A stretch of 64,000 nt of DNA from Lachnospira eligens (GTDB lineage Bacteria > Bacillota > Clostridia > Lachnospirales > Lachnospiraceae), in NCBI RefSeq assembly GCF_009680455.1, contig NZ_WKRD01000003.1, forward strand, positions 1-64,000, in the 5' to 3' direction. Positions 29,236-46,574 of this stretch are shown one piece after another; position 1 is the stretch's first letter, and every line of letters starts with the position of its first letter. The position numbers were made by a program, and so were the translations under genes. A model generated the notes under the pieces. The model was not told the origin of the DNA. It did not search any database and worked only from the letters and a program-made list of their open reading frames with translations.

Positions 29236-29280
29236 GATTGGAATTTTTCTGATGAAATTTTGTTATAACTCGAATAAGGT

Positions 29281-29310: not shown

Positions 29311-29434
29311 TAATAATGAGCGAGAGAGTTGTGAAAATCACACTGACAGTTGAGCTCTATAAGTATCTGAAAATGTCGGGAAAGCATAAATAATTATATA
29401 ATGGTTAAGTATACGATAATAGGAAAAAACAGGC

Positions 29435-29806
29435 ATGAATACAGAAAAGATAGGAATTAATATTTCAAAATTAAGAACGGAACGAGGTATTACACAAGAA
29501 CAGCTTGGGAGGGATATTGGGCTTACGGCTTCAGCAATTTCTAATATAGAGTGTGGGAGGAGTGTGCCGTCAGTAGATACTTTATGCAGATTTTCAGAAT
29601 TGTTTGGAGTTAAGGTGGATTCGATTATATCAGACAGTTCAGAATCTGATCTGAGCAGGCTTGAGATGGAGGAAAAACTTGTTACCGTTGACAGATATTT
29701 ATCAGAAATAAATGAGATGTCTGCTAATTACAGCATAGGTCATAGAAATTATGAGATTAGCAAGAAAGGGGGCGAAATAGTTTATAAGGCATCATCTAAA
29801 GATTAA
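29435..29806 (+). CDS. Xre-family regulator
   Basis: A 123-residue protein with an N-terminal helix-turn-helix (about residues 7-60: LRTERGITQEQLGRDIGLTASAISNIECG) and a C-terminal helical tail (EEKLVTVDRYLSEINEMS). It is the first recognisable gene after island promoter A and is followed closely by a membrane-protein gene. It probably regulates this group of surface and membrane proteins. The ribosome binding site is weak (AGGAAAAAACAGGC). Confidence 0.85.
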   Translation: MNTEKIGINISKLRTERGITQEQLGRDIGLTASAISNIECGRSVPSVDTLCRFSELFGVKVDSIISDSSESDLSRLEMEEKLVTVDRYLSEINEMSANYSIGHRNYEISKKGGEIVYKASSKD

Positions 29807-29840
29807 ATGAAATTATAAGTTAAGTATGAGGAGGAACAAA

Positions 29841-30683
29841 ATGCGAAGATTTATAAATTGGATAGCAGATTTAATTGATGATTATTTAAATGCATTTGTT
29901 GAGAAACCATTAGAAACATTGTCGAAAACAATATCATGGGTGTTTGGTATCGTAATAGGTGTAATGTCAATTGTGGCGTATATCATGTTTATAGCTGAGG
30001 GAGGATATCCAAAGGCAATAGCAGCAATAAAGAATTCAGAAACTGGATTTTTTGATGGAGTTGGAGCAAGCTTTTCTAAAGGAACAGTACATATAATTGC
30101 TAATAATGGAGTGCATAAGGCACTTGGAATTATACTGATAGTTCAGATTGTAATAGCATTATTAATGCTTGTGTTTGAAGGAAAGATATGGAAATGGATT
30201 CTTGCCATAATTGATTTTATATTGATGGGGGTTTCAGGAACATGGCTGCTTGTCAAATATAATCAGTATAAGAAGATAGAAAAAATGTACTATGAACAGG
30301 CAGACAATGAACTGATTGACTGGGATTATGCCGGCAGGATGGTTGATAACTGGGTAAACAGCATCAGGGATAATCTTAAGATATTCCTGATAATTGCAGG
30401 CGTTGCAATAGTATTGTTTATAGTAGTTCTAATGATAAGCAATGGAAGATATGCTGTCTTTTCATTTGCAATAAGTGCCTTGATTACATGCGCAGCTATG
30501 CCATTGGCAATTCTAATACTGGAAAATATTATTGGATTGGCAATTGGACTTGTGACAATTATTGTAATAGGAATAATTCTTCTCATAATATGTTCATTTG
30601 CTGACGGTGGTTCAGATTCATCAGTAGCTACTGAAGCATTTGACAGAGCGGGAAACTTTATTGGCTGGTTTCATAGAAAATAA
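29841..30683 (+). CDS. Multi-pass membrane protein of unknown function
   Basis: A 280-residue protein with about six hydrophobic segments: ISWVFGIVIGVMSIVAYIMF, ALGIILIVQIVIALLMLVF, WILAIIDFILMGVSGTWLL, IFLIIAGVAIVLFIVVLMI, VFSFAISALITCAAMPLAIL and IGLVTIIVIGIILLIICSF. The N-terminal amphipathic stretch is MRRFINWIADLIDDYLNAF. GAGGAGG precedes the ATG at 29,841. It sits between the Xre regulator and a large exported protein. I do not recognise a family. Confidence 0.7.
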   Translation: MRRFINWIADLIDDYLNAFVEKPLETLSKTISWVFGIVIGVMSIVAYIMFIAEGGYPKAIAAIKNSETGFFDGVGASFSKGTVHIIANNGVHKALGIILIVQIVIALLMLVFEGKIWKWILAIIDFILMGVSGTWLLVKYNQYKKIEKMYYEQADNELIDWDYAGRMVDNWVNSIRDNLKIFLIIAGVAIVLFIVVLMISNGRYAVFSFAISALITCAAMPLAILILENIIGLAIGLVTIIVIGIILLIICSFADGGSDSSVATEAFDRAGNFIGWFHRK

Positions 30684-30708
30684 TGCATAAAACATAAGGG
30701 GATACATT

Positions 30709-33021: not shown

Positions 33022-33097
33022 AGACAATTTGTGATATAATCAACCTATATTATCAGGTCGTGAAAACTAAAGAAAAAGACTTGAGGGAAGGGGGATT

Positions 33098-34354
33098 ATG
33101 AACGAATTTAATGCCAACAGACAGGTGTATTCTGATTCGATAAGGGGAACATATGTAATATTTCCTTTAAAGTATGAAAGTAGTCTTAATCTTACAGAGC
33201 TTACTATTGATGGAGCAGAAAATGCGGATTTTTCATCATATGATATGTCAGATATTCTTGCCAGAAGATGTAGGAAAGAAAATGGTTTTGTCAGAAGATA
33301 CATTTTAAATTCATGCATTGATGATGTACATTTTTCAGATGGTAAAATATTGGCAGTTAATGAGAGCCAGTTATATGTATTTAATAACAGAATAGCATTT
33401 TTCACGGTGCTTGTTACATATGACAATGCTGACGCGGATTACATTGATAAGCTGATTAATCCGGGCTATGTACAGAATTACAACCGCAGTTTTGAAGAAA
33501 ATGTAATTAAAGCTGTAAGTAATATTTCAATAGGCGGGGTCAGTAATATATTCAGATTGTATGTTGATGATATGAAACTGGCGGTGAAGGAGACATATCT
33601 TTTTAATGTGGCACTTGTAAACAGGCGTTTTAATGAGTTGGAAACTATTGAAAGAATTACATTTAACGAACATAAATTAATAGACATTTCGCGTGATTTT
33701 TCGGATCCTTCAGAAAAGGATATAGCATATACATACGGCGCGAAGGATACTAATATGTGTTCATACAGATGGGGAGCATGCATTACATCACAGTCAATAT
33801 CATATGTGTATGCAACAGATGATATGACAACGGCAAATGTTGCAGAGCAGTCAAGAGATGATGTATTTCTTACAATGCTGGTTTTACACCAGAAAAGTAC
33901 ATGCATGCTGGTTAATGAAGGAATTCAGAATACGCTGATTGACAATAAACGTCAGAGTCTTGAGTATTTCAGAAAAGTGAAAATGCTTAAAAAAGAAGCG
34001 TTGGAATTTCGTGCTTCAGGTACGCTTGCACCATCGCAGGTATCACGCTGGAATAATGTCTGCGAAACATACAGATGTCTGTTAGCCGTTAATGGAATTG
34101 ATGAAGCACTTGAAGAAATCGAGCAGAAGGTTGAACTCATAAGGGACGAACAGGAGAGGAAATCTTCTGACATGCAGAATTATGTGGCAACTGTCATAGC
34201 AGTATTTGGCTTGATTTCGATTGTTGCGTCTGTATTATCAATAGTTGATCTGGTAAATAGCGGTTCGACAGACATAGTAGCAGCTCTTGGAGTTTCGTGC
34301 ATAGGAGTTGTGTTGTTTGTGTTCTCGTGGTTGATTTTGATGTTGAAGAAATAA
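33098..34354 (+). CDS. Cytoplasmic-domain protein with two C-terminal membrane helices
   Basis: A 418-residue protein with a soluble N-terminal ~350 residues, a helical segment (LEEIEQKVELIRDEQERKSSDMQ) and two C-terminal membrane helices (VATVIAVFGLISIVASVLSIV, VAALGVSCIGVVLFVFSWLILML). The topology recalls CorA-type channels, but the GMN motif is absent, so magnesium transport is not claimed. GAGGGAAGGGGG precedes the ATG. A TATAAT-like sequence at about 33,032 may give it its own promoter. No family recognised. Confidence 0.65.
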   Translation: MNEFNANRQVYSDSIRGTYVIFPLKYESSLNLTELTIDGAENADFSSYDMSDILARRCRKENGFVRRYILNSCIDDVHFSDGKILAVNESQLYVFNNRIAFFTVLVTYDNADADYIDKLINPGYVQNYNRSFEENVIKAVSNISIGGVSNIFRLYVDDMKLAVKETYLFNVALVNRRFNELETIERITFNEHKLIDISRDFSDPSEKDIAYTYGAKDTNMCSYRWGACITSQSISYVYATDDMTTANVAEQSRDDVFLTMLVLHQKSTCMLVNEGIQNTLIDNKRQSLEYFRKVKMLKKEALEFRASGTLAPSQVSRWNNVCETYRCLLAVNGIDEALEEIEQKVELIRDEQERKSSDMQNYVATVIAVFGLISIVASVLSIVDLVNSGSTDIVAALGVSCIGVVLFVFSWLILMLKK

Positions 34355-34393
34355 GATAAGAGATTTATTGGTTTTGAAAGGGGTTATATAACA

Positions 34394-35020
34394 ATGGCTA
34401 TTAGTTTAGAGGAATTTAGTAATGATTTTAAAGAAACAATAAAGGTAATATTTGATGAAACTGAAGGTAGTGAATGGTATAAAGATTTTCTGTGTAAATT
34501 TAAAAAATTAACTGAGAAAGATGATAAAAAAGTAGGTTATTATGGTTGCAGTATAGGAACAATCGAATTAATGCTCTTTATAAGAAAAAGAATGAGAGAT
34601 GAAGGTCTTGCACCTGATATAGCTTTAGAAAACAATTCATTTAAAAAGAGAGATAGGTTACATTATATAAAAAAATATTGCCCTAAATTTTGCAATTTAT
34701 TTCCGCGTACATGTGAATGCGAAGAAAAGTATGACTTAAACTATAAAGTAGATGGATGGAATTATACGGATATTAAGTATTCTTGTGAAGATTGGATTAA
34801 AATTCTTCCTGTAGAACAAAAAGATAAAGACAAGTCAGTGAAAGAATACTTAACACATTTATATTATAATGAATTGGATCATTATTTAACAAATTGCGTT
34901 AGTAAATTGAAAAATGAATGTGTCAAAAATGAGAATAGTTCTGATTATAAAGAAGGAATTAAAGCTCCTAAAGAAAGAGGATTATTATGCATTAGAGAAG
35001 AAATAAAAGATAAATTTTAA
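34394..35020 (+). CDS. Hypothetical soluble protein
   Basis: A 208-residue charged protein with a central cysteine group (KKYCPKFCNLFPRTCECEE, about residues 93-111) that could hold a metal, and otherwise helical sequence. There is no signal peptide or membrane helix. Its base composition is more AT-rich than its neighbours and GAAAGGGG precedes the start. It ends the first part of the island. No family recognised. Confidence 0.6.
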   Translation: MAISLEEFSNDFKETIKVIFDETEGSEWYKDFLCKFKKLTEKDDKKVGYYGCSIGTIELMLFIRKRMRDEGLAPDIALENNSFKKRDRLHYIKKYCPKFCNLFPRTCECEEKYDLNYKVDGWNYTDIKYSCEDWIKILPVEQKDKDKSVKEYLTHLYYNELDHYLTNCVSKLKNECVKNENSSDYKEGIKAPKERGLLCIREEIKDKF

Positions 35021-35070
35021 AAATTATAAATTATGATTATTTACAAATAAAAAGACATCCACCCAAAGGC

Positions 35071-35100
35071 GAAAAAACCCGACCTCTCCGACATTATAAT
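35071..35100 (+). promoter_or_regulatory. Island promoter element, copy C
   Basis: GAAAAAACCCGAC (35,071-35,083), 11 bases, then TATAAT (35,095-35,100), identical in layout to copies A and B. Downstream similarity with copy A continues (TATAAT, AATAAT and CGAGAG shared). A short frame TTG...TAG (35,124-35,156; about ten codons) with GAGAGG upstream could be a leader peptide. It drives the operon beginning at 35,185. Confidence 0.65.
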
Positions 35101-35184
35101 AAATAATAGACGAGAGGTCATCTTGTCTGAACACAAAACACCATATAAAAGATAGGAGAACAGCCAGACGAAAGGAGCTTATTA

Positions 35185-35685
35185 ATGAAAAGAAGAAATC
35201 AATACATAAGCCAGCTCGGAGTATCGGGAAGAATTTATGGTGGTAATTTTGTTACAGAGAAAAAGCTGTACAGAATTCATCAAAGATATCGATATGGATT
35301 TGATTATCGTGACATTTTTAATATGGATATGTCATATGCAGAATGGTTATACTCACATATGCGAATGTATAAGGATAATAGTGTTCATGATGATACTATG
35401 GCTACTGTAACATTTGATGGCAAAGAATACACCATACAAGAGGCGGTGGATTGGATTATTGAAAATATCGGGGAATTTATCAGATATGATTATTATTTGG
35501 ATACACATTTTGATTACATAACAAGATATCCTCTTATAGGAAAAATTATGAGTAAATTTAATCCGGCTGTCAGAATGTATTTACAGGAGTATGAATGGCT
35601 TGAAGATAATGAGTGTCAAATAACGGATAATTTTATTAAAGCAGGCGGACTATTTATTGAGATAATGCAATATTGCTGGTTGTAG
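35185..35685 (+). CDS. Hypothetical protein, first gene of island operon
   Basis: A 166-residue soluble protein rich in Tyr, Asp and Arg (RIHQRYRYGFDYRDIFNMDMSYAEWLYSHMRMY). A segment AVDWIIENIGEFIRYDYYLDTHFDYITRYPL suggests an all-helical fold. CGAAAGGAGC precedes the ATG. It is the first gene after island promoter C. No motif supports a function. Confidence 0.65.
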   Translation: MKRRNQYISQLGVSGRIYGGNFVTEKKLYRIHQRYRYGFDYRDIFNMDMSYAEWLYSHMRMYKDNSVHDDTMATVTFDGKEYTIQEAVDWIIENIGEFIRYDYYLDTHFDYITRYPLIGKIMSKFNPAVRMYLQEYEWLEDNECQITDNFIKAGGLFIEIMQYCWL

Positions 35686-35716
35686 GAAATAATGTCTATA
35701 GATAAGGAGAATCACA

Positions 35717-36235
35717 ATGACAATTAAATTTAAAGAGATAAGAAGATTTCTGGCAAGAAACATAAGATTATCAATCTGCTTTTTAGATGGGCATTATCAT
35801 AATTATCTGTTGGTATCCGATATTCTGTCTTCGGAATATGATGAGTTCTATGTGTACGGAGTAGGTATGACTGATGTGGAGTTTTCGAAGGATATCTATT
35901 CAGAACCAGAAGAACCAAATGGTGAGGTAAGTATATCTATGAGTAATCTTACAATACAGCCAGCGTTAGAGATAGTATTATCTGATAAGCCACGGAATAT
36001 TGAGAGAAACATTTGTGATAATCTGACATTTAAAGATCTAAAGCCGTATTTACAAGTTATAGGTGAGTTCAATATTGTTAATAAGCTGGACTGGTCAGAT
36101 GAATCATATAAGTGCAGAGAAAACATTCCAGAAAAATATGACAACATGTATGTGTATGGCATTGGAATGGAGAGAATCTCTGACCATAAGAAAAGAATGG
36201 TGTTGGTGCTTTCGGACAACCCAAGACAGAACTAA
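35717..36235 (+). CDS. Hypothetical protein with internal duplication
   Basis: A 172-residue protein built of two similar halves. Half 1 has FKEIRRFLA, YDEFYVYGVGM and LEIVLSDKPRN; half 2 has FKDLKPYLQ, YDNMYVYGIGM and MVLVLSDNPRQN. The matching order shows a tandem domain duplication of about 85 residues. AAGGAGAATCACA gives the ribosome binding site. Its stop touches the start of the next gene, so the pair is coupled. No family recognised. Confidence 0.7.
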   Translation: MTIKFKEIRRFLARNIRLSICFLDGHYHNYLLVSDILSSEYDEFYVYGVGMTDVEFSKDIYSEPEEPNGEVSISMSNLTIQPALEIVLSDKPRNIERNICDNLTFKDLKPYLQVIGEFNIVNKLDWSDESYKCRENIPEKYDNMYVYGIGMERISDHKKRMVLVLSDNPRQN

Positions 36236-36631
36236 ATGCAAAAAGAGGCTGATAAATTGAAGTGTAAAAATTGTAAATACAAAACCAATATAGCAAATAC
36301 GAGTGAAACAGGTTCGGCAATATGCTCATATCCAAGCTCATGGTTGCCTGTAAATATCGAAGATAACTGCCATTTTATTCCAGAAAAGAGGGAACTTACT
36401 TGTAGTGATTGTTCCAGATTGCATGAAGATATGGCGTGTTTTAGCTGCGCTGAAGATGACAGTGCAATATTTAATGGGCAGTTGTGCAGGGGATTTATAG
36501 ATAAAAGAAAAGAAGAATTGAATAGTATTCTTATGTTTTGGAAAGTACAGGGATTTTATGACCGTAAAAAAATAAATGAATTAATCGACGAATTTGAACA
36601 GTTTTATGATAGTTTTTTTAAGCAGGAGTAA
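36236..36631 (+). CDS. Cysteine-rich small protein
   Basis: A 131-residue protein with three paired-cysteine segments: LKCKNCKYK, LTCSDCSRLHEDMACFSC and a final LCRGF, a probable double zinc ribbon in the N-terminal 85 residues, followed by a helical tail (KKINELIDEFEQFYDSFF). It starts immediately after the stop of the preceding gene (TAAATG). Zinc-ribbon proteins of this kind often serve as adaptors; the role is unknown. Confidence 0.65.
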   Translation: MQKEADKLKCKNCKYKTNIANTSETGSAICSYPSSWLPVNIEDNCHFIPEKRELTCSDCSRLHEDMACFSCAEDDSAIFNGQLCRGFIDKRKEELNSILMFWKVQGFYDRKKINELIDEFEQFYDSFFKQE

Positions 36632-36636
36632 TACAT

Positions 36637-36810
36637 TTGAACATAGTAGATAAATGTGAAAAAGAGGCAGACATAACTTTATCAGACATAGAAAAGATGA
36701 ATATGTATGATATAAAAGCTGCACATATCAAAGAAGATAAACAGAAAATTATTGAAATTGAAGGAAAGTTTAGCGTGATTGATACACTGAAGGATTTATT
36801 AAAAATGTAA
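36637..36810 (+). CDS. Small 57-residue protein with TTG start
   Basis: TTG at 36,637 has AGGAGTAATACA upstream and opens a 57-codon frame (begins MNIVDKCEKEAD; ends IDTLKDLLKM) rich in Lys, Glu, Asp and Ile. It starts five bases after the stop of the cysteine-rich gene and ends 16 bases before the phosphoesterase gene, filling the gap exactly as an operon member would. No family recognised. Confidence 0.55.
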   Translation: MNIVDKCEKEADITLSDIEKMNMYDIKAAHIKEDKQKIIEIEGKFSVIDTLKDLLKM

Positions 36811-36826
36811 TGAGAGGCACATATTT

Positions 36827-37510
36827 ATGGATATTACAATAGATGATAATAGAAATGTATATGTGGTTTCGGATATTCATAATTATGCAGATGGATTTAA
36901 AAGGCTGTTAAAGAAGATACAGTTTAATGAGAATGATTTGCTGATTATTGATGGAGATATATTTGACCGTGGAGATAAGCCAGTTGAGCTGTATTTTGAA
37001 ATATTAAAATATCCCAATATACAGGTGATACAGGGCAATCATGATGTCTGGGTTGCAAGGCAGATTATTGAACAATTCGGACATAGAAAAACTGGAGAAT
37101 ATATTTCTTATAATACAGTGGCTATTATGGAGAAGCGGCTGACAGCTGTTGATATGTTAAGACTTGCTGAATGGATACAGGAAAAGCCATATTATATTAA
37201 TCTCACCATTAATGGCAGGAAATATCAGATAGCACATGCACAGACATTTCTGACGCCTGAGCGTATGTTGGATAAAAGAAAGATATATATGGGAGACGGG
37301 CATTATGAGTATTTTATCAGGGGTATGGAGGAACATGAGCAGTTTATATCTGTTGTGGGGCATACTGTAACTGATAACAGGAGAATATGGGTGTCTCCTT
37401 CAGGACGGACTATACGCATAGATTGTGGCGCTGGTTATAAATGTTATGGTAAAGAGGGAACACTGGGAGCAATAAGGTTAAATGACATGAGAGAATTTTA
37501 TATAGATTAA
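36827..37510 (+). CDS. Calcineurin-like metallophosphoesterase 1
   Basis: A 227-residue phosphoesterase of the PPP/ApaH-like branch. The motif series is complete: VVSDIHNYADG (GDxHG equivalent, DIH), IDGDIFDRGDKP (GDxxDRG), IQGNHDVWV (GNHD), and later histidines in IAHAQTF and VVGHTVTDNRRIW. It should bind two metals and cleave a phosphomonoester or a dinucleoside polyphosphate. GAGAGGCACATATTT precedes the start. It ends the first island operon. Confidence 0.88.
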   Translation: MDITIDDNRNVYVVSDIHNYADGFKRLLKKIQFNENDLLIIDGDIFDRGDKPVELYFEILKYPNIQVIQGNHDVWVARQIIEQFGHRKTGEYISYNTVAIMEKRLTAVDMLRLAEWIQEKPYYINLTINGRKYQIAHAQTFLTPERMLDKRKIYMGDGHYEYFIRGMEEHEQFISVVGHTVTDNRRIWVSPSGRTIRIDCGAGYKCYGKEGTLGAIRLNDMREFYID

Positions 37511-37528
37511 TAAATTTTGATAAATGGT

Positions 37529-37558
37529 GGAAAAAACCGACCAAACTGTTATTATAAT
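37529..37558 (+). promoter_or_regulatory. Island promoter element, copy B
   Basis: GGAAAAAACCGAC (37,529-37,541), 11 bases, then TATAAT (37,553-37,558), 39 bases before the WYL regulator start. It has the same spacing as copies A and C. Confidence 0.65.
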
Positions 37559-37596
37559 AGAGAATACAATATATTATGATTAACACGAGGTGACAT

Positions 37597-38802
37597 ATGG
37601 CAAAGAGAAAGATTCAGAAACCAACCCGTTTTGAGCGTATGTATAAGGTCTGGGATTATCTGAGAAAGAATACAGACAGAAGACACCCTACCAGTATTGC
37701 AAAGATGAGGAAAGATGAAAATATAAATGCGTATATTGGTGATAAGGAGACTATTAACAGGCTTTTAAAAGATATGGCAAATATTATGAATCTGGAAGAT
37801 GGAGGAAGTGATTATAAGCCAGAGGCTGAGTGGAGGCTGTATTTTGATGATTTCAAGAAGTTTTACGGTGATAAGGAAAGATATGAACGGGATGATTCTG
37901 ATGAAGATGATTCTTATATTGCAAATGTAATGCGAATAAAGAACCTTTACTATAACAGAACATTTTCTGAGAAAGAGGTTGATTCAATTATTGAGGGTAT
38001 TATGGCAACAAGGACACTGGATTCCAAGTCGGCGCAGGAGCTTGTCAGGAAGGTTGAGGACAATATGACTACGGTATTTTATAAGAGAACGCCGAGACAT
38101 ATATGTAAGGTTCAGGAGCCGGAGCTTGCAGATAGGGAACTGCTGAAGGACAATCTTGCCATTATACAGAAAGCAATTGATGATAATGTGAGAATACAAT
38201 TCAGATTCAATGGCTATTCTTATGAGAAAAAGCTGGAGCCGGTCAGGGCGGAGATGGACGAGCTTAGCCCATACTATATTGTTGCGAGTGGTGGAAAATA
38301 CTATCTGCTGGCGGCTAAAGAGTATGAGGGTTACAAGCCCAATATGTCTATATGGCGGATTGACCTTATGACGGATATAGAGATTCCAGGAAGAAATGAC
38401 AGGCTTCATATTAAGGGGATACCGCGTATCCCAAAGAAAAATGTTTCAAATCTTCCAGAAAAATGGTCAGAAGATTTTCAGTTGAAACATCTTAATATGT
38501 CGTTTGATAAGCCGGTTCCGGTAACGCTAAGAATTAAGAGTGAAAAATGTGAAGGCAATCCGAAAAAGAGAGTCCGCCCCGGTTATACATTTTTACATGA
38601 CTGGTTCGGAGATTCATTCACATACATAAGAACAGAAAAAGAGCCACCATATGACGATATCGTCAGGGTGGAGTGTTCACCTTATGGTATGGCACACTGG
38701 GCATTGCAATATAGTGAACTTGTGGAAGTTCTTGAGCCGGAAAGTCTGCGGGAAGATATTAAAAGTAAGATAAAGGCATTAAATGAAAAGTATTCATTGT
38801 GA
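37597..38802 (+). CDS. WYL-domain transcription regulator 1
   Basis: A 401-residue regulator. An N-terminal winged helix (about 5-65; RKNTDRRHPTSIAKMRKDENINAYIGDKETINRLLKDM) is followed by a WYL ligand-binding domain (about 190-290: IQFRFNGYSYEKKLEPVRAEMDELSPYYIVASGGKYYLLA) and a WCX-like C-terminal extension. WYL domains sense nucleic acids or nucleotides and often govern phage-defence or repair islands. CGAGGTGACAT precedes the ATG. It is directly behind island promoter B, so it probably acts on this promoter family. Confidence 0.9.
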   Translation: MAKRKIQKPTRFERMYKVWDYLRKNTDRRHPTSIAKMRKDENINAYIGDKETINRLLKDMANIMNLEDGGSDYKPEAEWRLYFDDFKKFYGDKERYERDDSDEDDSYIANVMRIKNLYYNRTFSEKEVDSIIEGIMATRTLDSKSAQELVRKVEDNMTTVFYKRTPRHICKVQEPELADRELLKDNLAIIQKAIDDNVRIQFRFNGYSYEKKLEPVRAEMDELSPYYIVASGGKYYLLAAKEYEGYKPNMSIWRIDLMTDIEIPGRNDRLHIKGIPRIPKKNVSNLPEKWSEDFQLKHLNMSFDKPVPVTLRIKSEKCEGNPKKRVRPGYTFLHDWFGDSFTYIRTEKEPPYDDIVRVECSPYGMAHWALQYSELVEVLEPESLREDIKSKIKALNEKYSL

Positions 38803-38837
38803 AAAGAAGTTAGATTAATAGGAGGAAAGTGGAGTTT

Positions 38838-39746
38838 ATGTCAAAAGTATCTTTTGTGATTGGAGCGATGGCTTCTGGTAAAACACATTTCATAAAACAA
38901 TTTTTTGCTGATAAGGATGTTGATGTTTTAAATATTTTTGACTATCAACAAAATGCATATAAAGAATCTGGATTTGGAGAAATGATGCCTATAGGAGTTC
39001 AATTCAGATGTTTGATGAAAGCTAATGATATGCTTCTTAACGATATCATCGAAAAACTGAAATGTGGAAGAGATGTTGTCGTAGAACAGACATTTTTTAA
39101 AGCAAAGCGTCGAATTGTTTATGTTGATGCGATACGTGAATCTGTTGATGCAGAAATGGAAATATATGTTATGTGCCCAAGTGATGAGAGATGGCAGAAA
39201 AATATTAGAATAAGAAATTTGGAAGAGGGTTGTGGCTCTTTTAAGATGAATATTTCAGAGATAGAATTTCCGAATCCGATTGAAGGATTTGATTCAATTT
39301 ATGAGGTGTCAGAAGACGGCATCAAATTAAGATTAGATCCGCCTTTGGATGAGCAGTTCCTGATAGATGCAAGAAAACAGATTACAGACGAAAAAGAGAG
39401 AATAGAAAAAGAAGATGATAAATCAAGGAAACGTAAAGCTTTATTGGAGAGTATGAAAACACGACCGTTTTGGCACTATTGTGAAGTGTGTGGAAAGAAG
39501 GAGTTTTTGACTGACGAAGATGCATTCAATAGGGGATGGGATTACCCGCCTAAAATGGGTTCCTTTGGGCTGCTTGGACCTCGGACATGTGGGAATTGCA
39601 AAATGAGGGATACTTTGTATTGGAAGATACAGACATCTGGGAAGCTTCCGATAGTCATAGAAGGAGATTTGAACGAAAAAGATCTTATTACTTGGAGACG
39701 TATAAAAGGAGAACCAGAGAGCCTCCTTAACGAAGAAAATCAGTAA
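38838..39746 (+). CDS. Zeta-like P-loop kinase with C-terminal zinc ribbon
   Basis: A 302-residue protein. The N-terminal ~170 residues form a P-loop kinase: Walker A IGAMASGKTHFIKQFF, VVVEQTFFKAKRR and an arginine-rich lid (DERWQKNIRIRNLEEG), the zeta-toxin or polynucleotide-kinase style. A charged linker (ERIEKEDDKSRKRKA) leads to a zinc ribbon (YCEVCGKKEF ... TCGNCKMRD) and a tail. GGAGG lies 12 bases before the ATG at 38,838. A kinase that phosphorylates a nucleic acid or nucleotide would fit the phosphoesterases around it, but the substrate is unknown. Confidence 0.72.
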   Translation: MSKVSFVIGAMASGKTHFIKQFFADKDVDVLNIFDYQQNAYKESGFGEMMPIGVQFRCLMKANDMLLNDIIEKLKCGRDVVVEQTFFKAKRRIVYVDAIRESVDAEMEIYVMCPSDERWQKNIRIRNLEEGCGSFKMNISEIEFPNPIEGFDSIYEVSEDGIKLRLDPPLDEQFLIDARKQITDEKERIEKEDDKSRKRKALLESMKTRPFWHYCEVCGKKEFLTDEDAFNRGWDYPPKMGSFGLLGPRTCGNCKMRDTLYWKIQTSGKLPIVIEGDLNEKDLITWRRIKGEPESLLNEENQ

Positions 39747-39782
39747 TGGGAGAACTTTACATTAATTAATGGAGGAATGTAA

Positions 39783-40817
39783 ATGATTGATATAACAATG
39801 TCAGATGATTATAGGAAGTTTTTAGAAGAACAAAATTATAACTTTACAGATTTCCAGACAGCAACTCTTGTCTGGAATGACCCCATGAAAAGCAGACAGC
39901 AGAAGCTGGAGGCATTGGCTTTATTAAGAGACACTACTAAAGATATTGTACTTAAGAAGCAGATCATCGAAAGAATAGAGTATGAAAATAAATTGTTTGA
40001 TACATTTAAAGATAATTCTAAGGGCAGGTATGTATATTTTGTAGAAAACAACGAAGGGGACAGCAGAGGTTTTTTCGGTGATTATGAAAGAGCCGTACAT
40101 TATATCACTAAATATATAGCGGAAAATGAAAAGTATAACAATAAGTATATGGAAGAAAATAAAAAAGAAATAATAAATAGTGAATTGTTATATGAAATAC
40201 GTAAGCAGATAATTGTGAAATCAGATGATGATGAGAAGAATCTGGTAAGGTGTACGGGAAGACCCGGTTCAAAATTTAATTATGAAAAATATGAGGATTA
40301 TGATGGTCTGCCAGTGGGAACTTATACATTAAATAACAAAGGGAATATAGTTCATTGGTGGAGTGATGAACTGTCAAAAGAGGAAGCAGACATAGTAAAT
40401 CCGTTCAGACCGGAAAGATTTGAAGGTGCATTTTTTGAAATCCCATTTTGTTATAAGTCAGCAGGTACTCCAGTGAAGGATATAGTAGATGGAACATATG
40501 GAATACTTTCATTTGGAGAAGATGACTGGAATGATTATCTTCAAGAGATTAAAGACAGAAAATGGGAAGTTGATTATTCAGATATTCAGGCTGTGGTTTT
40601 ATATCCAATAAAGTCGGAGTACTGGGATCATATGCATTGTAATCCATTGCATCTTCAGATGGAACTGCCGCCACATATGGAGAACAAAGAGGAAGATGCA
40701 GCTTATAGGAGAGCCATGGAAGCGCTCAGTGATTATTGCTTTTACAAAGGAGAGCACAATACAGAGGAAACAGCTAAACGGTGTATGAGGGAATATGCTA
40801 AGGTTTGTAGAAAATAA
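39783..40817 (+). CDS. Hypothetical protein with shared N-terminal helical module
   Basis: A 344-residue soluble protein. Residues about 8-70 (KFLEEQNYNFTDFQTATLVWND, KLEALALLRDTTKDIVLKKQ) match in pattern the N-terminus of the protein at 42,035, a helical module I have seen in many orphan Lachnospiraceae proteins. The rest has a middle domain (GRYVYFVENNEGDSRGFFGDYERAVHYI) and a C-terminal region with no clear motif. GGAGGAATGTAA precedes the ATG. No function can be assigned. Confidence 0.68.
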   Translation: MIDITMSDDYRKFLEEQNYNFTDFQTATLVWNDPMKSRQQKLEALALLRDTTKDIVLKKQIIERIEYENKLFDTFKDNSKGRYVYFVENNEGDSRGFFGDYERAVHYITKYIAENEKYNNKYMEENKKEIINSELLYEIRKQIIVKSDDDEKNLVRCTGRPGSKFNYEKYEDYDGLPVGTYTLNNKGNIVHWWSDELSKEEADIVNPFRPERFEGAFFEIPFCYKSAGTPVKDIVDGTYGILSFGEDDWNDYLQEIKDRKWEVDYSDIQAVVLYPIKSEYWDHMHCNPLHLQMELPPHMENKEEDAAYRRAMEALSDYCFYKGEHNTEETAKRCMREYAKVCRK

Positions 40818-40834
40818 TAGATTAAGGAGAAAAT

Positions 40835-41740
40835 ATGAATAAAAGAGATTACGAAAAAACTAATGATTATAAGAAAAGTATAGAGATTTTAAAAGGGTTT
40901 GTGAGAGATGTCTTAGATGGAAATATAGAGAAATTAAAAGATTTTGATTTTACTGATTTAACAACATATGTTGGAGATAATATTGATTCAGATATGTATC
41001 TTATTACACAAGCTATATATATTATTCTTTGGGGTGATATATATGACTTGACTTTTGAAAAAATGGGTTCGTGGACTTGGAATAATAGATATCCTTTTAG
41101 AGGTGATACAATGAACTCCTTCGGATCTTTATTTGGTAAGGAAGATAAGGAAAAAGGTAGAGAGTTTGCTTTTCGAGCTAAATATTACAATGCAGATCAA
41201 AATCCCCATTTATGGGCAAAGATAAAGAAATTTTCAAAATCTTACCATTGTATAGGAAATTTCATTGTTATTCCTAACAGGGGAACTTTGGAAAAAGGTA
41301 TTAATGGAGCAAGAGGTAAATATTACAATGAAGAAAAGTGTGAAGGAATGAGGGATTATTTTGATTGGTTTTTAATAGCGATTGCTAATTACCAAAACAA
41401 GGTAAAGAGAGGGGATAATCATTTAAGTAAATTTGAGATGCAACTTCAAATGAATCCAGAATATAATCCAGAATATAATCCAGCATTTTTATCTATAAAA
41501 GAATGGGAAGAACGATTTTTTTTAAAACCATATTTTAAAGAGGGTGAACCAATTGTACTGTTTAAAACACCATTAGAAGAGAGATTAAAGGTGACAGCAG
41601 CTAATGCTACGAATCCAAAGATTTCTTACTATGGAGCAGAAGAGTACCTTGAACTTCTAGAAGATTTCCTGGATAAATCAGAAGAGGTTATAGAATATAG
41701 AACAAATAAAATTATTGAGATTTTGAAGGAAAAATTGTAA
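40835..41740 (+). CDS. DUF6994-like protein
   Basis: A 301-residue soluble protein whose pattern (WGDIYDLTFEKMGSWTWNNRYPFRGDTMNSFGS, NPHLWAKIKKFSKSYHCIGNFIVIPN, MRDYFDWFLIAIANYQN) matches what I recall as the DUF6994 family, a widespread Firmicutes group of unknown function. An NPEYNPEYNP repeat lies near residue 208. AAGGAGAAAAT precedes the start. It is 17 bases after the preceding gene. Composition is more AT-rich than the phosphoesterases. Confidence 0.65.
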   Translation: MNKRDYEKTNDYKKSIEILKGFVRDVLDGNIEKLKDFDFTDLTTYVGDNIDSDMYLITQAIYIILWGDIYDLTFEKMGSWTWNNRYPFRGDTMNSFGSLFGKEDKEKGREFAFRAKYYNADQNPHLWAKIKKFSKSYHCIGNFIVIPNRGTLEKGINGARGKYYNEEKCEGMRDYFDWFLIAIANYQNKVKRGDNHLSKFEMQLQMNPEYNPEYNPAFLSIKEWEERFFLKPYFKEGEPIVLFKTPLEERLKVTAANATNPKISYYGAEEYLELLEDFLDKSEEVIEYRTNKIIEILKEKL

Positions 41741-41793
41741 AGAAACGCTGTTTGTATAATAGTGGTAGTTACACTGTTGGGGAGGTGCTTTTT

Positions 41794-42000
41794 ATGATGA
41801 ATTTGTCTGAATTCTTGGGAAATTGGGATGGTAATACATTAGTTTTTATTAAGACACATACAGATAAAGTGTTTTCAGGAAAAATCGCAGATGTGTCAGC
41901 GGATGTGGCGGGTAGGTATTGTATTCCGAAGGCTGGTGTAAAACACAATAAAGGAATAATGTATATAACTGTATATGACAAATTCAAGGAAGTTGAGTGA
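41794..42000 (+). CDS. Small hypothetical protein
   Basis: A 68-residue protein (MMNLSEFLGNWDGNTLVFIK ... VYDKFKEVE) of small beta-barrel-like composition. The ATG at 41,794 is chosen because GGGGAGGTGC sits just upstream; the frame is open from 41,752 but that start has no ribosome binding site. A TATAAT at 41,754-41,759 may be a promoter. No family recognised. Confidence 0.6.
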   Translation: MMNLSEFLGNWDGNTLVFIKTHTDKVFSGKIADVSADVAGRYCIPKAGVKHNKGIMYITVYDKFKEVE

Positions 42001-42034
42001 GATGAGTTAAAATAAAAGCGTAAGGAGGTGCCTG

Positions 42035-42886
42035 ATGATAGAAAATTTTATAGACAGATTTGTTCCATCCAGAGATGAAAGAGAGTTTCTTAAAGACAAG
42101 AGTGTTACATTTTCGGATGTGGAACAGGCAGAAATAATAATTAATCATGAGTGCTTAAAAAATTCAGAAAAAAAACAGGCAGTGCAAGAGTTGAAAGAAA
42201 CCATATCAGATAAAGAATTGATAGCGGATTTAAATAAGGCAATTGATGAAATACCGGATTCGGAGAATTGCTGGCACGAATCGGGTATGAAATGCTTTTA
42301 TAGAAAATTTGATATTCCACATAATTTCAGACATGGGGATATAGTAAGAGTTGTTGATGGGAAACATGAAGGGAATATCGGAGTAATACTTGGGCTTACA
42401 GATGAAGAGTATGAGAAATTTAAAGTCAAAAAGGGTGATTACAGTGATATACAGATATGTGTTGATGTGATATTCAGAGGATATGATTATCTTGGAGAAT
42501 TTTCACACTCGCATGTTAATCCAATATATATTGAGAGAATCCAGCTTCCAGAAAGTGATGCAAGGAAACATTACATCGACTATCTTGTGGAAACATACGA
42601 TAAACAGTATTTATCAGATTATAATACAGCTACACACAAAGAAAAAATAAAACAACGAATCCACATTTTGTCTGCCGTTATGTGGGCGCAGGAACATCAT
42701 AACCAGATTATGTATCTGGTGGATAGTGCAAAGGATAAAGCCTGTTTTCAGGAGATGCTAATGGAACAATATAATTTTGACAGAGAACAGGCATGTGCTA
42801 TTTCGGATATGAGAATGAGTGTGTATACAGCAATAGAAAAAGATAGAACAAAAAAGGAAATACAGGAATTATTAATGAAAATGTAA
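42035..42886 (+). CDS. Hypothetical protein with shared N-terminal helical module
   Basis: A 283-residue protein. Its N-terminal ~70 residues (REFLKDKSVTFSDVEQAEIII, KKQAVQELKETISDKELIADLN) share the module seen at 39,783. The middle part has HGDIVRVVDGKHEGNIGVILG, a KOW/SH3-like beta segment, and a helical C-terminus (LMEQYNFDREQACAISDMRMSVYTAIEK). AAGGAGGTGCCTG precedes the ATG. No enzymatic motif is seen. An RNA- or protein-binding adaptor role is possible. Confidence 0.68.
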   Translation: MIENFIDRFVPSRDEREFLKDKSVTFSDVEQAEIIINHECLKNSEKKQAVQELKETISDKELIADLNKAIDEIPDSENCWHESGMKCFYRKFDIPHNFRHGDIVRVVDGKHEGNIGVILGLTDEEYEKFKVKKGDYSDIQICVDVIFRGYDYLGEFSHSHVNPIYIERIQLPESDARKHYIDYLVETYDKQYLSDYNTATHKEKIKQRIHILSAVMWAQEHHNQIMYLVDSAKDKACFQEMLMEQYNFDREQACAISDMRMSVYTAIEKDRTKKEIQELLMKM

Positions 42887-42910
42887 TTATAAGAAAATGG
42901 AGGGCGTCAG

Positions 42911-43063
42911 ATGGAATTAAAACAATCAGATACGATAAACAGATATGATAAAGAAATGAAATCACAAGAGGAGTTAAAACATTTTCAGGAATCAGCGGCA
43001 CTTTTTTATAAAGACGCACAGGAATTATACAAAGAAGATGTCAAAAGAAGAAAGAATAATTAA
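42911..43063 (+). CDS. Small 50-residue protein
   Basis: A 50-codon frame (begins MELKQSDTINRYD; ends LYKEDVKRRKNN) with AATGGAGGGCGTCAG upstream. It is highly charged and helical. It fits between its neighbours with only 24 and nine bases of spacing, so it is a probable operon member. No family recognised. Confidence 0.6.
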   Translation: MELKQSDTINRYDKEMKSQEELKHFQESAALFYKDAQELYKEDVKRRKNN

Positions 43064-43072
43064 AGGTGAAGT

Positions 43073-44098
43073 ATGAGTATTGAGTATAATGTGCTTAATA
43101 TATTAAAGGAACACAGTTCCAAAGAGGCAGCAATAACGCTGAAGGTTACTGATATCGTTACTTATATGCATAGGGAATATGATAAAAGTATTACAGATAA
43201 GCAGGTCAGGAAGGCGTTAAAGGATTTGACGGACTCAGAGCTTAATCTGCCTGATGAACAGAAGATAATCAGATACAGGACATATGACAATGAGCGCCGC
43301 AAGACAGATTATTATTATAATAACATTATAACCGATGTAGAGTTTAAATTTCTTATAGATTCTGTGTTGTACAGTAACATTTTTAATAATGAAAGAGCAA
43401 TGGACTTAGCCGGGCGTATTCAGACTTTATCAGGGAAGAATCTGAAGGATATAACACCTTATGCAAATGCTTCTTTCGGACAGACCAGATATGCACAGAA
43501 TACAGATGTTTTGGCAAACTGCCAGCTTATAATTGACGCCATTAAAAATGACAATTACATAGAATTTGACTGGAATGTGTATGATGTTAAGAATAAAAAT
43601 GTTTATCTGCATTTTCAGGGAAGAAGAACGGTGATTCCTATAAGACTTATGCTCAATAATGGAAGATATTTCTGTCTGGTAAGATACAGGGACAGCAGGA
43701 AAGTGTATACATACAGTGTTGACCTTATGACCAGATTAAGAGTAAAGGAACAGAGAAAAAGTGATGGAATAGGCTTTGATAACCTTGATATACCATTGGA
43801 GAGAGCAGTATATATTCTGAATCACCCTTATATGATGGGCGGTGAATTAAGACCTTATATTGTCAGGATAGACAGGGAGTATTTTTCAAGACTTATAGAT
43901 GATTTTTCGTATGAGATAAATGTTTTGAAAGAAACGGATACAACAGTTGATATCCGTGTAAATGCGTCATGCAAGGGAATGGCATACTGGCTGTGTCATC
44001 ATTATGATATAGCTTCAATTGTTGATAATAAGGATAAAGAACTGAATAAAGAATTAAAGAAGGCAGCAGAGTCTATATTAAGACAGGTACAGGATTGA
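43073..44098 (+). CDS. WYL-domain transcription regulator 2
   Basis: A 341-residue regulator with an N-terminal winged helix (about 5-70; ITLKVTDIVTYMHREYDKSITDKQVRKALKDLT), a WYL domain (about 150-220: IIDAIKNDNYIEFDWNVYD, RRTVIPIRLMLNNGRYFCLVRYRDSRKVYTYSVDLM) and a C-terminal extension. It is a distant paralogue of the regulator at 37,597. AAAGGTGAAGT precedes the start. Two WYL regulators in one 8-kb stretch is unusual and suggests separate or heteromeric control. Confidence 0.88.
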   Translation: MSIEYNVLNILKEHSSKEAAITLKVTDIVTYMHREYDKSITDKQVRKALKDLTDSELNLPDEQKIIRYRTYDNERRKTDYYYNNIITDVEFKFLIDSVLYSNIFNNERAMDLAGRIQTLSGKNLKDITPYANASFGQTRYAQNTDVLANCQLIIDAIKNDNYIEFDWNVYDVKNKNVYLHFQGRRTVIPIRLMLNNGRYFCLVRYRDSRKVYTYSVDLMTRLRVKEQRKSDGIGFDNLDIPLERAVYILNHPYMMGGELRPYIVRIDREYFSRLIDDFSYEINVLKETDTTVDIRVNASCKGMAYWLCHHYDIASIVDNKDKELNKELKKAAESILRQVQD

Positions 44099-44115
44099 AA
44101 AAAGGAGAAACACGA

Positions 44116-44706
44116 ATGAATTACTATATTAGTGATATGCATTTCTTCCATAAAAATGTGACAAAGGAAGGCAATAATTTTGATAAGCGACCATTTAATT
44201 CATTAGCTGAAATGCACCAGTATATGAAAGAAAAATGGAACAGTAAGATTACAAATGGTGATACAGTTTATATTCTTGGAGATATTGCCATGCGGGGTAC
44301 AAACGAGGAGCTGATAGCCTTAGTTGCACAGTTAAAGGGCAGGAAAGTTCTTATTAAAGGAAATCATGATGATGTTTCTGATATGAGGTATAAGAATGTT
44401 TTTGAAGAGATATATGATTATAAGGAAATTACTGACTATGCAGACCAAGATGCATACAAGCTTGTGTTAAGCCATTATCCTATACTTATGTGGAATGGAC
44501 AGCACAGGGGGACAATACATTTGTATGGACATACTCATAATACTTATGAAAATGAATTCTATCAGGAATGTTTACGCAAGCTGAATATGGAAATGCTTAT
44601 GCGGTCAGAGAAGTGTTATGATATAGCAAGGGCTTACAATGTAGGCTGTATGATGCCTTATATGAATTATGAGCCACGCACATTGAAGGAAATACTTAAT
44701 AAATAA
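44116..44706 (+). CDS. Calcineurin-like metallophosphoesterase 2
   Basis: A 196-residue phosphoesterase of the compact phage/YfcE-like type. Motifs are YYISDMHFFHKN, ILGDIAMRG, LIKGNHDDVSD, LVLSHYPILMWN and IHLYGHTHNTYE, giving the complete dimetal site. The ATG at 44,116 follows AAAAAGGAGAAACACGA, 17 bases after the WYL stop. Substrate unknown; relatives cleave cyclic nucleotides, nucleic-acid ends or ADP-ribose derivatives. Confidence 0.88.
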   Translation: MNYYISDMHFFHKNVTKEGNNFDKRPFNSLAEMHQYMKEKWNSKITNGDTVYILGDIAMRGTNEELIALVAQLKGRKVLIKGNHDDVSDMRYKNVFEEIYDYKEITDYADQDAYKLVLSHYPILMWNGQHRGTIHLYGHTHNTYENEFYQECLRKLNMEMLMRSEKCYDIARAYNVGCMMPYMNYEPRTLKEILNK

Positions 44707-44738
44707 CATACTTAATAAATAGCATACGGAGGGAATAT

Positions 44739-45482
44739 ATGGCGACATATGTGATATCGGATATTCATGGTGAATACGGGAAGTTTATGGAACTGCTGGA
44801 TATAATACATTTTTCAGATGAAGATATATTGTATGTGCTGGGAGATGTTGTTGACAGAGGAAAGAACCCGGTAAAGACGCTTCTTAAGATGATGGAGATG
44901 CCAAATGTTATACCTATAGCAGGCAACCATGAACAGATGATGCTGGAATGTATGTCGGTTCTTATTAATGAAGTAAAAGATGAGAATTCCATCAAAGAAT
45001 TTGCAGAAAAGTTTAGTGACGATATGTTCCAGAAGCTTTATGCATGGCAGAGAAATGGTGGGATTGCAACCACTGATGAGCTGAGTAAGCTGGATAATGA
45101 GACAAGAAAAGATGTGCTTGACTATGTGTCGGATTTTTCATGGTACGAGAAGGTAGCGGTTAATGGACAGAAGTATCTTCTTGTGCATGGAGGGCTTGGC
45201 AATTTCGATATTAAGAGGGATATTGATGATTATTTACTTGATGAGCTTGTATGGTCAAGGGTGGATTATGATGTCAGATATTTTGATGATGTAATAACTG
45301 TCACAGGGCATACACCAACAAGATATATTGAGGACAATCCCAGACCAGGCTATGTGTACAGAAAGAATAATCACATTGATATTGACTGTGGCGCATATCT
45401 GCCGGGTGGAAGGCTTGCGGCAATATGTCTGGACACAGGTGAAGAATTTTATTCCAGTGATAATGATAAAGAGTTAATATAA
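44739..45482 (+). CDS. Calcineurin-like metallophosphoesterase 3
   Basis: A 247-residue PPP/ApaH-branch phosphoesterase: VISDIHGEYGKF, VLGDVVDRGKNP, IAGNHEQMM, LLVHGGLGN and VTGHTPTRYI are all present. GGAGGGAATAT precedes the start. It closely resembles the phosphoesterase at 36,827 in subfamily, but carries an additional helical insert (about 80-135). It follows phosphoesterase 2 by 32 bases. Ser/Thr protein phosphatase or Ap4A hydrolase activity is equally possible. Confidence 0.88.
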   Translation: MATYVISDIHGEYGKFMELLDIIHFSDEDILYVLGDVVDRGKNPVKTLLKMMEMPNVIPIAGNHEQMMLECMSVLINEVKDENSIKEFAEKFSDDMFQKLYAWQRNGGIATTDELSKLDNETRKDVLDYVSDFSWYEKVAVNGQKYLLVHGGLGNFDIKRDIDDYLLDELVWSRVDYDVRYFDDVITVTGHTPTRYIEDNPRPGYVYRKNNHIDIDCGAYLPGGRLAAICLDTGEEFYSSDNDKELI

Positions 45483-45497
45483 CAAACGGAGGCACAC

Positions 45498-46574
45498 ATG
45501 GCAAAATATCATTTTATTATAATCGGTTCAGGCTGGCGGGCCTTATATTATGTACGCGTAGCAAAGGCTCTGCCTGAAATATTCTGTATTGATGCGATGT
45601 ATTGTAGGACGCAGGAGAAAGCGGACTTAATTGCCGGTCAGTATCAGATACATACAACTACATCTATAGAAGAATGCGTGGCATATAAACCGGATTTTGC
45701 AGTTGTGGCTGTTAAGAAGGACGCCATATGCGATGTTTCAATGGAATGGCTTGACCGTGGAATAACAGTTTTATCAGAGACTCCGGCGGCACTTGATACG
45801 GATTCGCTTAATAAACTGTATTCTTATTACAAATGTGGTAAAAAACAGGTGGTTGCTGAACAGTACAGGGAGTATCCTAATATTAAAGCATCATTAAAGC
45901 TTATTAATGAAGGAATTATTGGTGATGTCAGCTGTGTAAATATGTCACTGGCGCATGAATATCATGGAATAAGTCTTATAAGAGCATTTCTTGGAGTTAA
46001 TCCGGGAGAGAAGTATACAGTTTCAGCTAAGACATATGAGTTTCCTACAACACAGACTCTTACAAGATATGATAAGTTCACTGATGGCAGGATTGCAGGA
46101 AAGAAAAGATGCGTCGCCACATTTGAATTCGAAAGCGGGAAAGTGGCATGGTATGATTTTGATTCGGAGCAGTACAGGTCACCAATCAGAAAGAATACGC
46201 TTAAAGTTCAGGGTGTAAGAGGCGAACTTATTGATGACTGTGTATATTATCTTGATGAGAATAATGAAGGTCAGACTGGCAGAATTATAACGGATTCCCA
46301 TGTGATTAATACAGGAAATTCTAATCCTAATTTTGAGAAGATTCGTGAAATTAAGAAAATTTCATTTAATAATAAGATTATATATGAGCCGGAATTTGGA
46401 TTGTGTGGTCTGTCAGAAGATGAAACAGCAATCGCAGTGATGATGAAGAATACGGCAGAGTATAGCAGAGGAAATGCGTCTGCACCATATAGTATGGAGG
46501 ATGCCCTTGCAGATGCGTATGCCGCCATCTTACTGAAGAAGGCTGTGGAAACAGGAGAAGTGGTGCATAGTTAA
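45498..46574 (+). CDS. Gfo/Idh/MocA-family oxidoreductase 1
   Basis: A 358-residue NAD(P)-dependent oxidoreductase. The N-terminal Rossmann segment FIIIGSGWRALYYVRVAKAL carries a modified GxGxxG (GSGWRA). The second half is the alpha/beta dimerization domain. The usual EKP motif is replaced by SETPAA, which may mean altered catalysis. CGGAGGCACAC precedes the start. It lies 15 bases after the last phosphoesterase and 23 bases before a second member, suggesting shared metabolism, possibly of an amino sugar or sugar acid. Confidence 0.78.
   Translation: MAKYHFIIIGSGWRALYYVRVAKALPEIFCIDAMYCRTQEKADLIAGQYQIHTTTSIEECVAYKPDFAVVAVKKDAICDVSMEWLDRGITVLSETPAALDTDSLNKLYSYYKCGKKQVVAEQYREYPNIKASLKLINEGIIGDVSCVNMSLAHEYHGISLIRAFLGVNPGEKYTVSAKTYEFPTTQTLTRYDKFTDGRIAGKKRCVATFEFESGKVAWYDFDSEQYRSPIRKNTLKVQGVRGELIDDCVYYLDENNEGQTGRIITDSHVINTGNSNPNFEKIREIKKISFNNKIIYEPEFGLCGLSEDETAIAVMMKNTAEYSRGNASAPYSMEDALADAYAAILLKKAVETGEVVHS

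Follow-up and report, generated by a model that had tools for sequence, protein, structure and literature searches.

A one-strand gene island combining WYL proteins, phosphoesterases and a zinc-ribbon kinase in Lachnospira eligens: a possible RNA end-processing kit

We analyzed a 64,000-nucleotide stretch of the Lachnospira eligens genome (contig NZ_WKRD01000003.1, positions 1 to 64,000; here called the window) that carries an island of about 16.4 kb, at window positions 29137 to 45503, in which all the genes described lie on the + strand. Two WYL-domain proteins (WYL1 and WYL2), three calcineurin-like phosphoesterases (PPE1, PPE2 and PPE3) and a P-loop kinase with a zinc ribbon (KIN), which an earlier reading of the sequence (the original prediction) had picked out, are all present as open frames on that strand between 35185 and 45482. 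The best reading of the block is a co-directional accessory array, horizontally shuffled, at a site that also takes defense genes. Going a step further, we propose, with a probability of roughly 0.45, that the island is a WYL-controlled, horizontally shuffled kit for processing the ends of RNA (or nucleotides), lodged in a defense hotspot. RNA ends or closely related nucleotides are favored as the target because of the linkage of the other families to KIN, their shared strand, the co-location of RNA ligases and HAD_SAK_2 proteins, a gene fusion, and a ribbon that recurs in phages.

The outcome that the original prediction had set against a functional unit was a random pile-up of single insertions whose members rarely co-occur. 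Neighborhood counts gave the opposite result: the members are found together, and on the same strand, much more often than chance would allow, in arrays whose make-up differs gene by gene. Our sample was 42 genome loci with KIN, many of them titled Lachnospiraceae or its genera, and the whole genomes were searched for relatives of PPE3, WYL1 and PPE2. Counting all listed rows of at least 60 bits, with fragments merged, we found 12 of 31 PPE3 relatives, 11 of 27 WYL1 relatives and 8 of 29 PPE2 relatives within 10 kb of KIN, where genome size predicts 0.21, 0.16 and 0.18. This is about 40- to 70-fold above chance, figures that are order-of-magnitude only because the expected values assume uniform positions and treat as independent genomes that are not so. 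At 140 bits or more, the near places numbered 11 of 22, 7 of 10 and 3 of 4, respectively. Two controls behaved differently: a single one of 36 WYL rows below 60 bits lay near KIN (0.24 expected), as did 1 of 32 AAA_21 rows of at least 60 bits among the matches listed (0.18 expected). Weak rows (below 60 bits) of PPE3 and PPE2 lay near KIN in 11 of 32 and 4 of 16 cases; since weak PPE3 rows are so often near KIN, the contrast between strong and weak matches holds for WYL only. The weak PPE3 rows fit the idea that other PPP-type phosphoesterases belong to the same pool. From the linkage test and its controls, random pile-up is rejected as the whole story.

A survey of open reading frames (ORFs) around KIN gave a similar picture. 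At least one other island family was present in 30 of the 42 loci, at least two in 18 and at least three in 10, and 78 of 78 island-family members lay on KIN's strand, compared with 415 of 507 ORFs of at least 150 amino acids (aa). The ORF caller missed KIN itself in loci L017 and L041, although tblastn detects it in L017, and one tally took in 39 of the 42 loci.

We also took a census of the proteins encoded around KIN, covering 119 of the 199 listed neighbors with at most two per cluster and leaving aside KIN, the PPP enzymes, PPE2 and the main cluster of WYL proteins. Among the 25 of 83 Pfam families listed, the commonest were HAD_SAK_2, RNA_lig_T4_1, Metallophos and two GNAT models, with three members each; PARG_cat_microb, Thg1, TnpV, LRR_5, BPD_transp_1, AAA_21 and DSPc had two each, and SIR2 occurred once. 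PADLOC tallied mad3 four times, AriA three times and AbiLi twice, so that known defense proteins are present among the neighbors. Because the census has no matched control region, the genome-wide linkage test carries more weight. In the same 42 genomes, 6 of 22 HAD_SAK_2 places lay within 10 kb of KIN (0.14 expected; 22 of 24 rows were used, one same-frame fragment and one below-cutoff row being dropped). The figure for RNA_lig_T4_1 (PF09511) was 4 of 8 (0.04 expected), three of these four ligases sitting in loci of the same arrangement (L026 to L028), so that together they weigh scarcely more than a single case. All 41 near places, 31 for PPE3, WYL1 and PPE2 and 10 for HAD_SAK_2 and RNA_lig_T4_1, share KIN's strand. 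HAD Swiss-army-knife phosphatases, RNA ligases, Thg1, kinases and phosphoesterases have been named as partners in phage RNA repair (PMC7824862, section 3.4.9).

KIN matches AAA_33 (PF13671) with 32.1 bits against a cutoff of 27 and has 752 homologues at an E value of 0.001 or better, most of which begin at the position equivalent to 38838. The label "zeta-like" given to it originally proved too specific, since the best fits are P-loop kinases of several kinds, PFKFB and bacterial polynucleotide kinase among them. On the predicted structure, bacterial polynucleotide kinase appears to fit about as well as PFKFB; PezT (2p5t) gave a Foldseek E value of 2e-05 against the model and is not among the 50 VIA rows listed, and the VIA matches covered residues 3 to 168. 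A KIN profile found only weak matches in the PDB (E = 0.088), and its viral matches mixed polynucleotide kinases with zeta toxins. The proteins on either side, WYL1 and the protein g344, match no antitoxin family in Pfam. KIN occurs in 1 of 61 relatives and is therefore accessory.

The ribbon of KIN is built on four cysteines (C218, C221, C254 and C257) that are invariant in 30 aligned sequences, the window's included, and it gave a sub-threshold match to a TFIIS ribbon in Pfam. In 3 of 16 phage loci (L045, L049 and L053), a free-standing copy of this "GWDYPP" ribbon has an RNA ligase as a close neighbor; the profiles used for the ligases contained those phage proteins, and Pfam directly confirmed two of the three (L049 and L053). 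A second viral scan added one further contig (L096), and the plasmid and phage collections yielded ribbon-only matches in one plasmid and three phage records.

All three phosphoesterases exceed the PF00149 cutoff of 21.5 bits (PPE1, 54.3; PPE2, 39.3; PPE3, 73.7). PPE1 and PPE3 are distant paralogues with 27% identity, and their translations carry the motifs DxH, GDxxDRG, GNH[DE] and GH of the PPP phosphatases. For both, the nearest PDB entry is 1g5b, listed as a serine/threonine protein phosphatase and presumably the lambda phage enzyme. PPE2 belongs to a different branch (phrog_547), which we take to be COG4186-like. The protein phosphatase match and the NinI-like PHROG match of PPE1 and PPE3 would also suit a countermeasure in which lambda-phosphatase-like enzymes remove phosphate, or processed ADP-ribose phosphate, put on host proteins by phage. 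PARG and SIR2 among KIN's neighbors point the same way, as do predicted ADP-ribosylglycohydrolase (ARG) systems that pair WYL with phosphatases, one of them calcineurin-like (PMC9503650). Such a role leaves KIN and the RNA ligases unexplained, and no ADP-ribosylglycohydrolase, Macro, NADAR or protein-kinase domain was recognized in the island; we regard it as highly improbable.

The two WYL proteins were called by narrow margins in Pfam and more clearly by PADLOC. WYL1 scored 22.0 bits for WYL, barely above the cutoff of 21.8, and 27.1 for WCX (cutoff, 23.9); WYL2 scored 21.9 bits for WYL, again barely above. The PADLOC E values were 2.8e-21 for WYL1 and 2.3e-12 for WYL2. Pfam called no helix-turn-helix (HTH) in the N terminus of either protein. 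WYL domains have been predicted to act as sensors of nucleotides or ligands (PMC4012209; PMC9503650, section 3.8).

Sensing of this kind would also serve the turnover of a nucleotide signal. PPP phosphoesterases would then cut dinucleoside polyphosphates or the cyclic or oligonucleotide signals of phage defense or stress, the kinase would act on a nucleoside or nucleotide, the WYL proteins would sense the same ligand, and no RNA would be joined, which agrees with the lack of a recognized ligase in the window. In NCBIfam, PPE1 and PPE3 both match the ApaH-type PRK00166 best (5.1e-11 and 1.4e-15), and ApaH structures are among the PDB matches of PPE3, but the ApaH scores are 42.4 and 57.3 bits against a family cutoff of 176. 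The linkage to RNA ligases, HAD_SAK_2 and Thg1 would also go unexplained, and we think this account rather unlikely.

Regulation within the island is suggested by two promoter-like blocks, P1 and P2. A common motif, AAAAAACC(C)GACC and then TTATAATA, lies upstream of the small-protein gene g166 (at 35076) and of WYL1 (at 37535), and the P1 block holds an 8-base inverted repeat around its −10-like hexamer. Both blocks are kept in an allied array in a relative, G015. A relaxed form of the pattern gave six matches in 1.18 Mb of partly overlapping sequence, four of which are the window and G015 sites. P1 and P2 can reasonably be taken, on their sequence, as a predicted autoregulated WYL regulon. 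The motif was rejected as an operator used by WYL proteins in relatives at large: within the sequence searched it turned up in the window and G015 alone, and it is absent by eye upstream of the WYL1 relatives in L005, L024, L037, L038 and L039.

Two of the island proteins described as unrecognized at first, g344 and g283 (39783 to 40817 and 42035 to 42886), turned out to be members of a single family, which is present at 7 of the 42 KIN loci. In L041 (16001 to 17446) a protein of this family carries a metallophosphoesterase fused at its N terminus. A genome search seeded with the KIN-linked members found 10 non-seed places: three near KIN (G074, G091 and G082), two near a PPE2 relative on contigs without KIN (G098:C79, at 2.3 kb, and G100:C3, at 1.0 kb) and five near neither. 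Database homologues of g344 (P0121 to P0134) range from 193 to 553 aa, with internal stretches missing in four of the six viewed; the G015 version, of 215 aa, also misses an internal stretch. A family profile gave only weak matches in the PDB (E value, 0.13 or worse). The C terminus of g283 (residues 200 to 282; window 42632 to 42883) resembles a segment of GyrA (TIGR01063, 1.2e-12), which we take to be the "C-gate," and stands behind a KOW-like domain whose score of 21.3 bits is slightly under the cutoff of 22.3. In a word-limited protein search, this C terminus had four homologues among six candidates. Recent copying from the host's own gyrA was rejected as its origin, the identity to gyrA-like frames in five genomes of the genus being 25 to 27%.

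A further protein, g301, had been called DUF6994-like. The window member itself falls below the cutoff for that family (15.7 versus 27 bits), and the name holds through a relative in L024 that passes it (31.9 bits). Relatives of g301 occur in 6 of the 42 KIN loci, and an AlphaFold model built with eight sequences reached a predicted local distance difference test score (pLDDT) of 54.9. For g172, the family was grouped by means of an iterated profile and a single fusion, and it aligns poorly.

The extent of the island was set by comparison with relatives in the same genus. In G003, G001 and G020 the site is empty by blastn, window position 29135 or 29136 joining 45504 with 3 to 4 bases between, and the adjoining segments are 91 to 99%, 90 to 98% and 80 to 94% identical to the window in DNA. 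The start originally given for the unit, 35060, therefore cuts the island, which begins near 29137 with an HTH regulator and large proteins of no recognized family. It is flanked on the left by a gene for a metallo-beta-lactamase-fold protein (28518 to 29141) and on the right by an oxidoreductase gene (45498 to 46574), which has its own ATG in the window and could start at a TTG overlapping the upstream stop in the empty sites. In G013 this site is occupied by an internally deleted PPE3 relative and by two further proteins, an AAA ATPase and one that is TOPRIM-like, which PADLOC identifies as AbiLi (2.9e-69) and AbiLii (1.6e-5), respectively (L074, 12057 to 13968). One position is empty in three genomes and occupied by AbiLi/AbiLii in another, the pattern of a defense hotspot. 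As insertion targets, structured RNAs and tRNAs were rejected: the window gave no Rfam match at the gathering threshold and no tRNA.

Exchange of genes is visible in the allied array of G015, which lies on another contig beside a frame resembling an RNA methyltransferase (by eye) and has aligned segments 75 to 98% identical to the window in DNA. Common to both arrays are the left end, g172, PPE1, WYL1, a shorter g344, g283, WYL2 and PPE2, with 96% identity across PPE1-WYL1 and 97% across g283-WYL2-PPE2. The G015 array is without KIN, g301 and most of PPE3, the middle of g166 is missing, and g418 is unmatched; a g82-like stretch sits where the window has the kinase, and PPE2 is followed by two additional phosphoesterases (PF00149, 57.9 and 52.0 bits). 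Breaks between window and G015 fall between genes around KIN and around g301-g82 and inside g166, g344 and PPE3. Pfam scans of 20 island proteins recognized no integrase, the rest of the genome lying outside their scope. An integron-like array was rejected on this ground and because no repeat lay between genes in the 20 listed of at least 60 direct-repeat families.

Variation of this kind, locus by locus, is also what a passive store would give, in which unrelated single-gene functions pile up at permissive operon sites that attract mobile genes. The rarity of KIN, the KIN loci that carry no other island family and the presence of GNAT, Mob, TnpV, AbiL and further cargo all agree with such a store. 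It does not account for the sharing of KIN's strand by 41 of 41 near places or for the fusion of a g344-family protein to a phosphoesterase, and AAA_21 and weak WYL rows show no excess near KIN comparable to that of the island families. We consider a passive store very unlikely.

If the island is an RNA end-processing kit, a cleaved RNA or nucleotide with a 2′,3′-cyclic or similar end would bind WYL1, WYL2 or both, and the WYL regulator would alter transcription from P1 (about 35076) and P2 (about 37535). PPE1 and PPE3, of lambda-phosphatase type, and PPE2 would take off terminal or cyclic phosphates, and KIN, with its ribbon as a targeting part, would phosphorylate 5′-OH ends. The healed ends might then be sealed by a ligase from another locus or just cleared. 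We infer the repair role and the substrate of the island enzymes; control of P1 and P2 by the WYL proteins, and its direction, are put forward in the same conditional spirit.

Several observations weigh against this proposal. No RNA ligase was recognized by Pfam among 20 proteins of the island, and no cyclic-phosphate specialist was recognized in the window. The kinase is dispensable, being absent from the G015 array and rare among relatives. In the ORF count, 12 of the 42 KIN loci have no other island family; L017 is one of them, yet tblastn finds PPE2 and PPE3 there. The idea of a coherent repair or signaling system, as first put forward, survives in part: the census and the phage ribbons support RNA ends, but the lack of a recognized ligase and the dispensability of KIN count against it, and the shared substrate is presumed.

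A broader proposal, which we offer tentatively and with some doubt, is that gut Firmicutes carry an unrecognized class of mobile one-strand arrays whose interchangeable members make up alternative RNA end-processing kits, each suited to a different RNA-cleaving toxin or phage. These members would be the zinc-ribbon "GWDYPP" kinase, phosphoesterases, WYL sensors, adaptor-like g344/g283 proteins, HAD proteins, ligase, PARG and Thg1. Exchange would take place at operon sites, one gene or a few at a time and with no integrase belonging to the arrays, and the ribbon would be an RNA-repair targeting module held in common with phages. If this is true, gut bacteria trade modular RNA-mending kits as they trade restriction systems, and phages hold a piece of them. 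WYL proteins, lambda-type phosphatases and several unnamed families would gain testable functions, and the gene combinations could be used to ask which RNA damage each kit answers.

The features of the island are collected in Table 1.

Table 1. Features of the island in window coordinates
Feature	Position	Strand	Basis or remark
Whole island	29137..45503	+	Empty site in three genus relatives (blastn)
HTH_3 regulator, left end	29435..29806	+	PF01381, 50.3 bits; 123-aa HTH-like frame at same end of G015 array
285-aa protein	29826..30683	+	No Pfam match at E 0.01
770-aa protein	30709..33021	+	Present in G015 array, 89% DNA identity
g418	33098..34354	+	Family near kinase in 3/42 loci
208-aa unrecognized protein	34394..35020	+	No match above cutoff; no relative among loci searched
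P1 promoter-like block	35066..35125	+	GAAAAAACCCGACC, TATAAT, inverted repeat GACCTCTC/GAGAGGTC; kept in G015, flanks diverged
g166, small protein	35185..35685	+	Family in 2/42 kinase loci
g172, small protein	35717..36235	+	Loosely grouped family, 7/42 kinase loci
g131, small Cys-rich protein	36236..36631	+	Weak Zn-ribbon match, E = 0.05
57-aa ORF, TTG start, uncertain	36637..36810	+	
PPE1, lambda-phosphatase-like (PPP) phosphoesterase	36827..37510	+	PF00149, 3e-14; phrog_246 NinI-like, 3.9e-29; nearest PDB 1g5b
P2 promoter-like block	37525..37575	+	AAAAAACCGACC...TTATAATA common to P1
WYL1, WYL + WCX	37597..38802	+	Pfam; 98% identical protein in G015
KIN, P-loop kinase (AAA_33), C-terminal CxxC...CxxC ribbon	38829..39746	+	PF13671
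g344	39783..40817	+	Same family as g283; L041 relative fused to metallophosphoesterase
g301, DUF6994-like	40835..41740	+	Window member below cutoff
g82, small protein	41752..42000	+	Similar DNA (76%) in kinase's slot in G015
g283: g344-family N-terminal part + KOW-like + GyrA-like C terminus	42035..42886	+	TIGR01063, 1.2e-12
50-aa ORF, uncertain	42911..43063	+	
WYL2	43073..44098	+	Pfam borderline; PADLOC
PPE2, metallophosphoesterase; alternative start 44116	44095..44706	+	PF00149, 1.2e-09; phrog_547, 1.6e-43; nearest PDB 1xm7
PPE3, lambda-phosphatase/ApaH-like (PPP) phosphoesterase	44739..45482	+	PF00149, 3.5e-20; phrog_246, 3.6e-45; nearest PDB 1g5b

Two other variable stretches were seen in the window. 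One, at 24847 to 27912, holds a gene for a 945-aa protein (24974 to 27811); it is absent from G003, G001 and G020, where the flanks on both sides match, and present in G013. The other, at 48188 to 48785, holds two small overlapping genes that look by eye like a RelB/DinJ-RelE/ParE toxin-antitoxin pair; G003 has this stretch, and the matched DNA in G013 and G020 lacks it.

We found no paper joining Lachnospiraceae, metallophosphoesterase and WYL, the survey of Burroughs and Aravind (2016) lying outside the scope of that search, and a prior description is possible. PPE1 and PPE3 resemble the lambda NinI-type PPP phosphatase, whose PHROG and nearest PDB entry they match, and differ from it in being encoded in a chromosomal array with WYL proteins and KIN. 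To our knowledge, the natural substrate of the lambda-type phosphatases is unclear. With the bacterial Pnkp/Hen1 and T4 Pnkp-Rnl1 systems the island shares a predicted polynucleotide-kinase-like P-loop fold and calcineurin-type phosphatases; such systems use a phosphatase of calcineurin or HAD type, and the island encodes three PF00149 proteins with that predicted activity. An RNA ligase (PF09511) lies near KIN in 4 of the 42 relatives' genomes. The island differs in that its kinase and phosphatases are separate genes, its kinase bears a zinc ribbon and WYL proteins are present, whereas no ligase or Hen1 was recognized in the window. The ARG-centered WYL/Nudix systems, named from actinobacteria, planctomycetes and proteobacteria, likewise combine WYL with phosphatases in a conserved core with swapped modules and are predicted to act against phages (PMC9503650, section 3.8); the island has no recognized ADP-ribosylglycohydrolase, and its set of phosphatases differs. 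With the RNA-repair gene pool that Burroughs and Aravind surveyed in 2016 (via PMC7824862, section 3.4.9), the likeness lies in the partners themselves: HAD Swiss-army-knife proteins, Rnl1/Rnl2 ligases, Thg1, a kinase and a calcineurin-like phosphatase.

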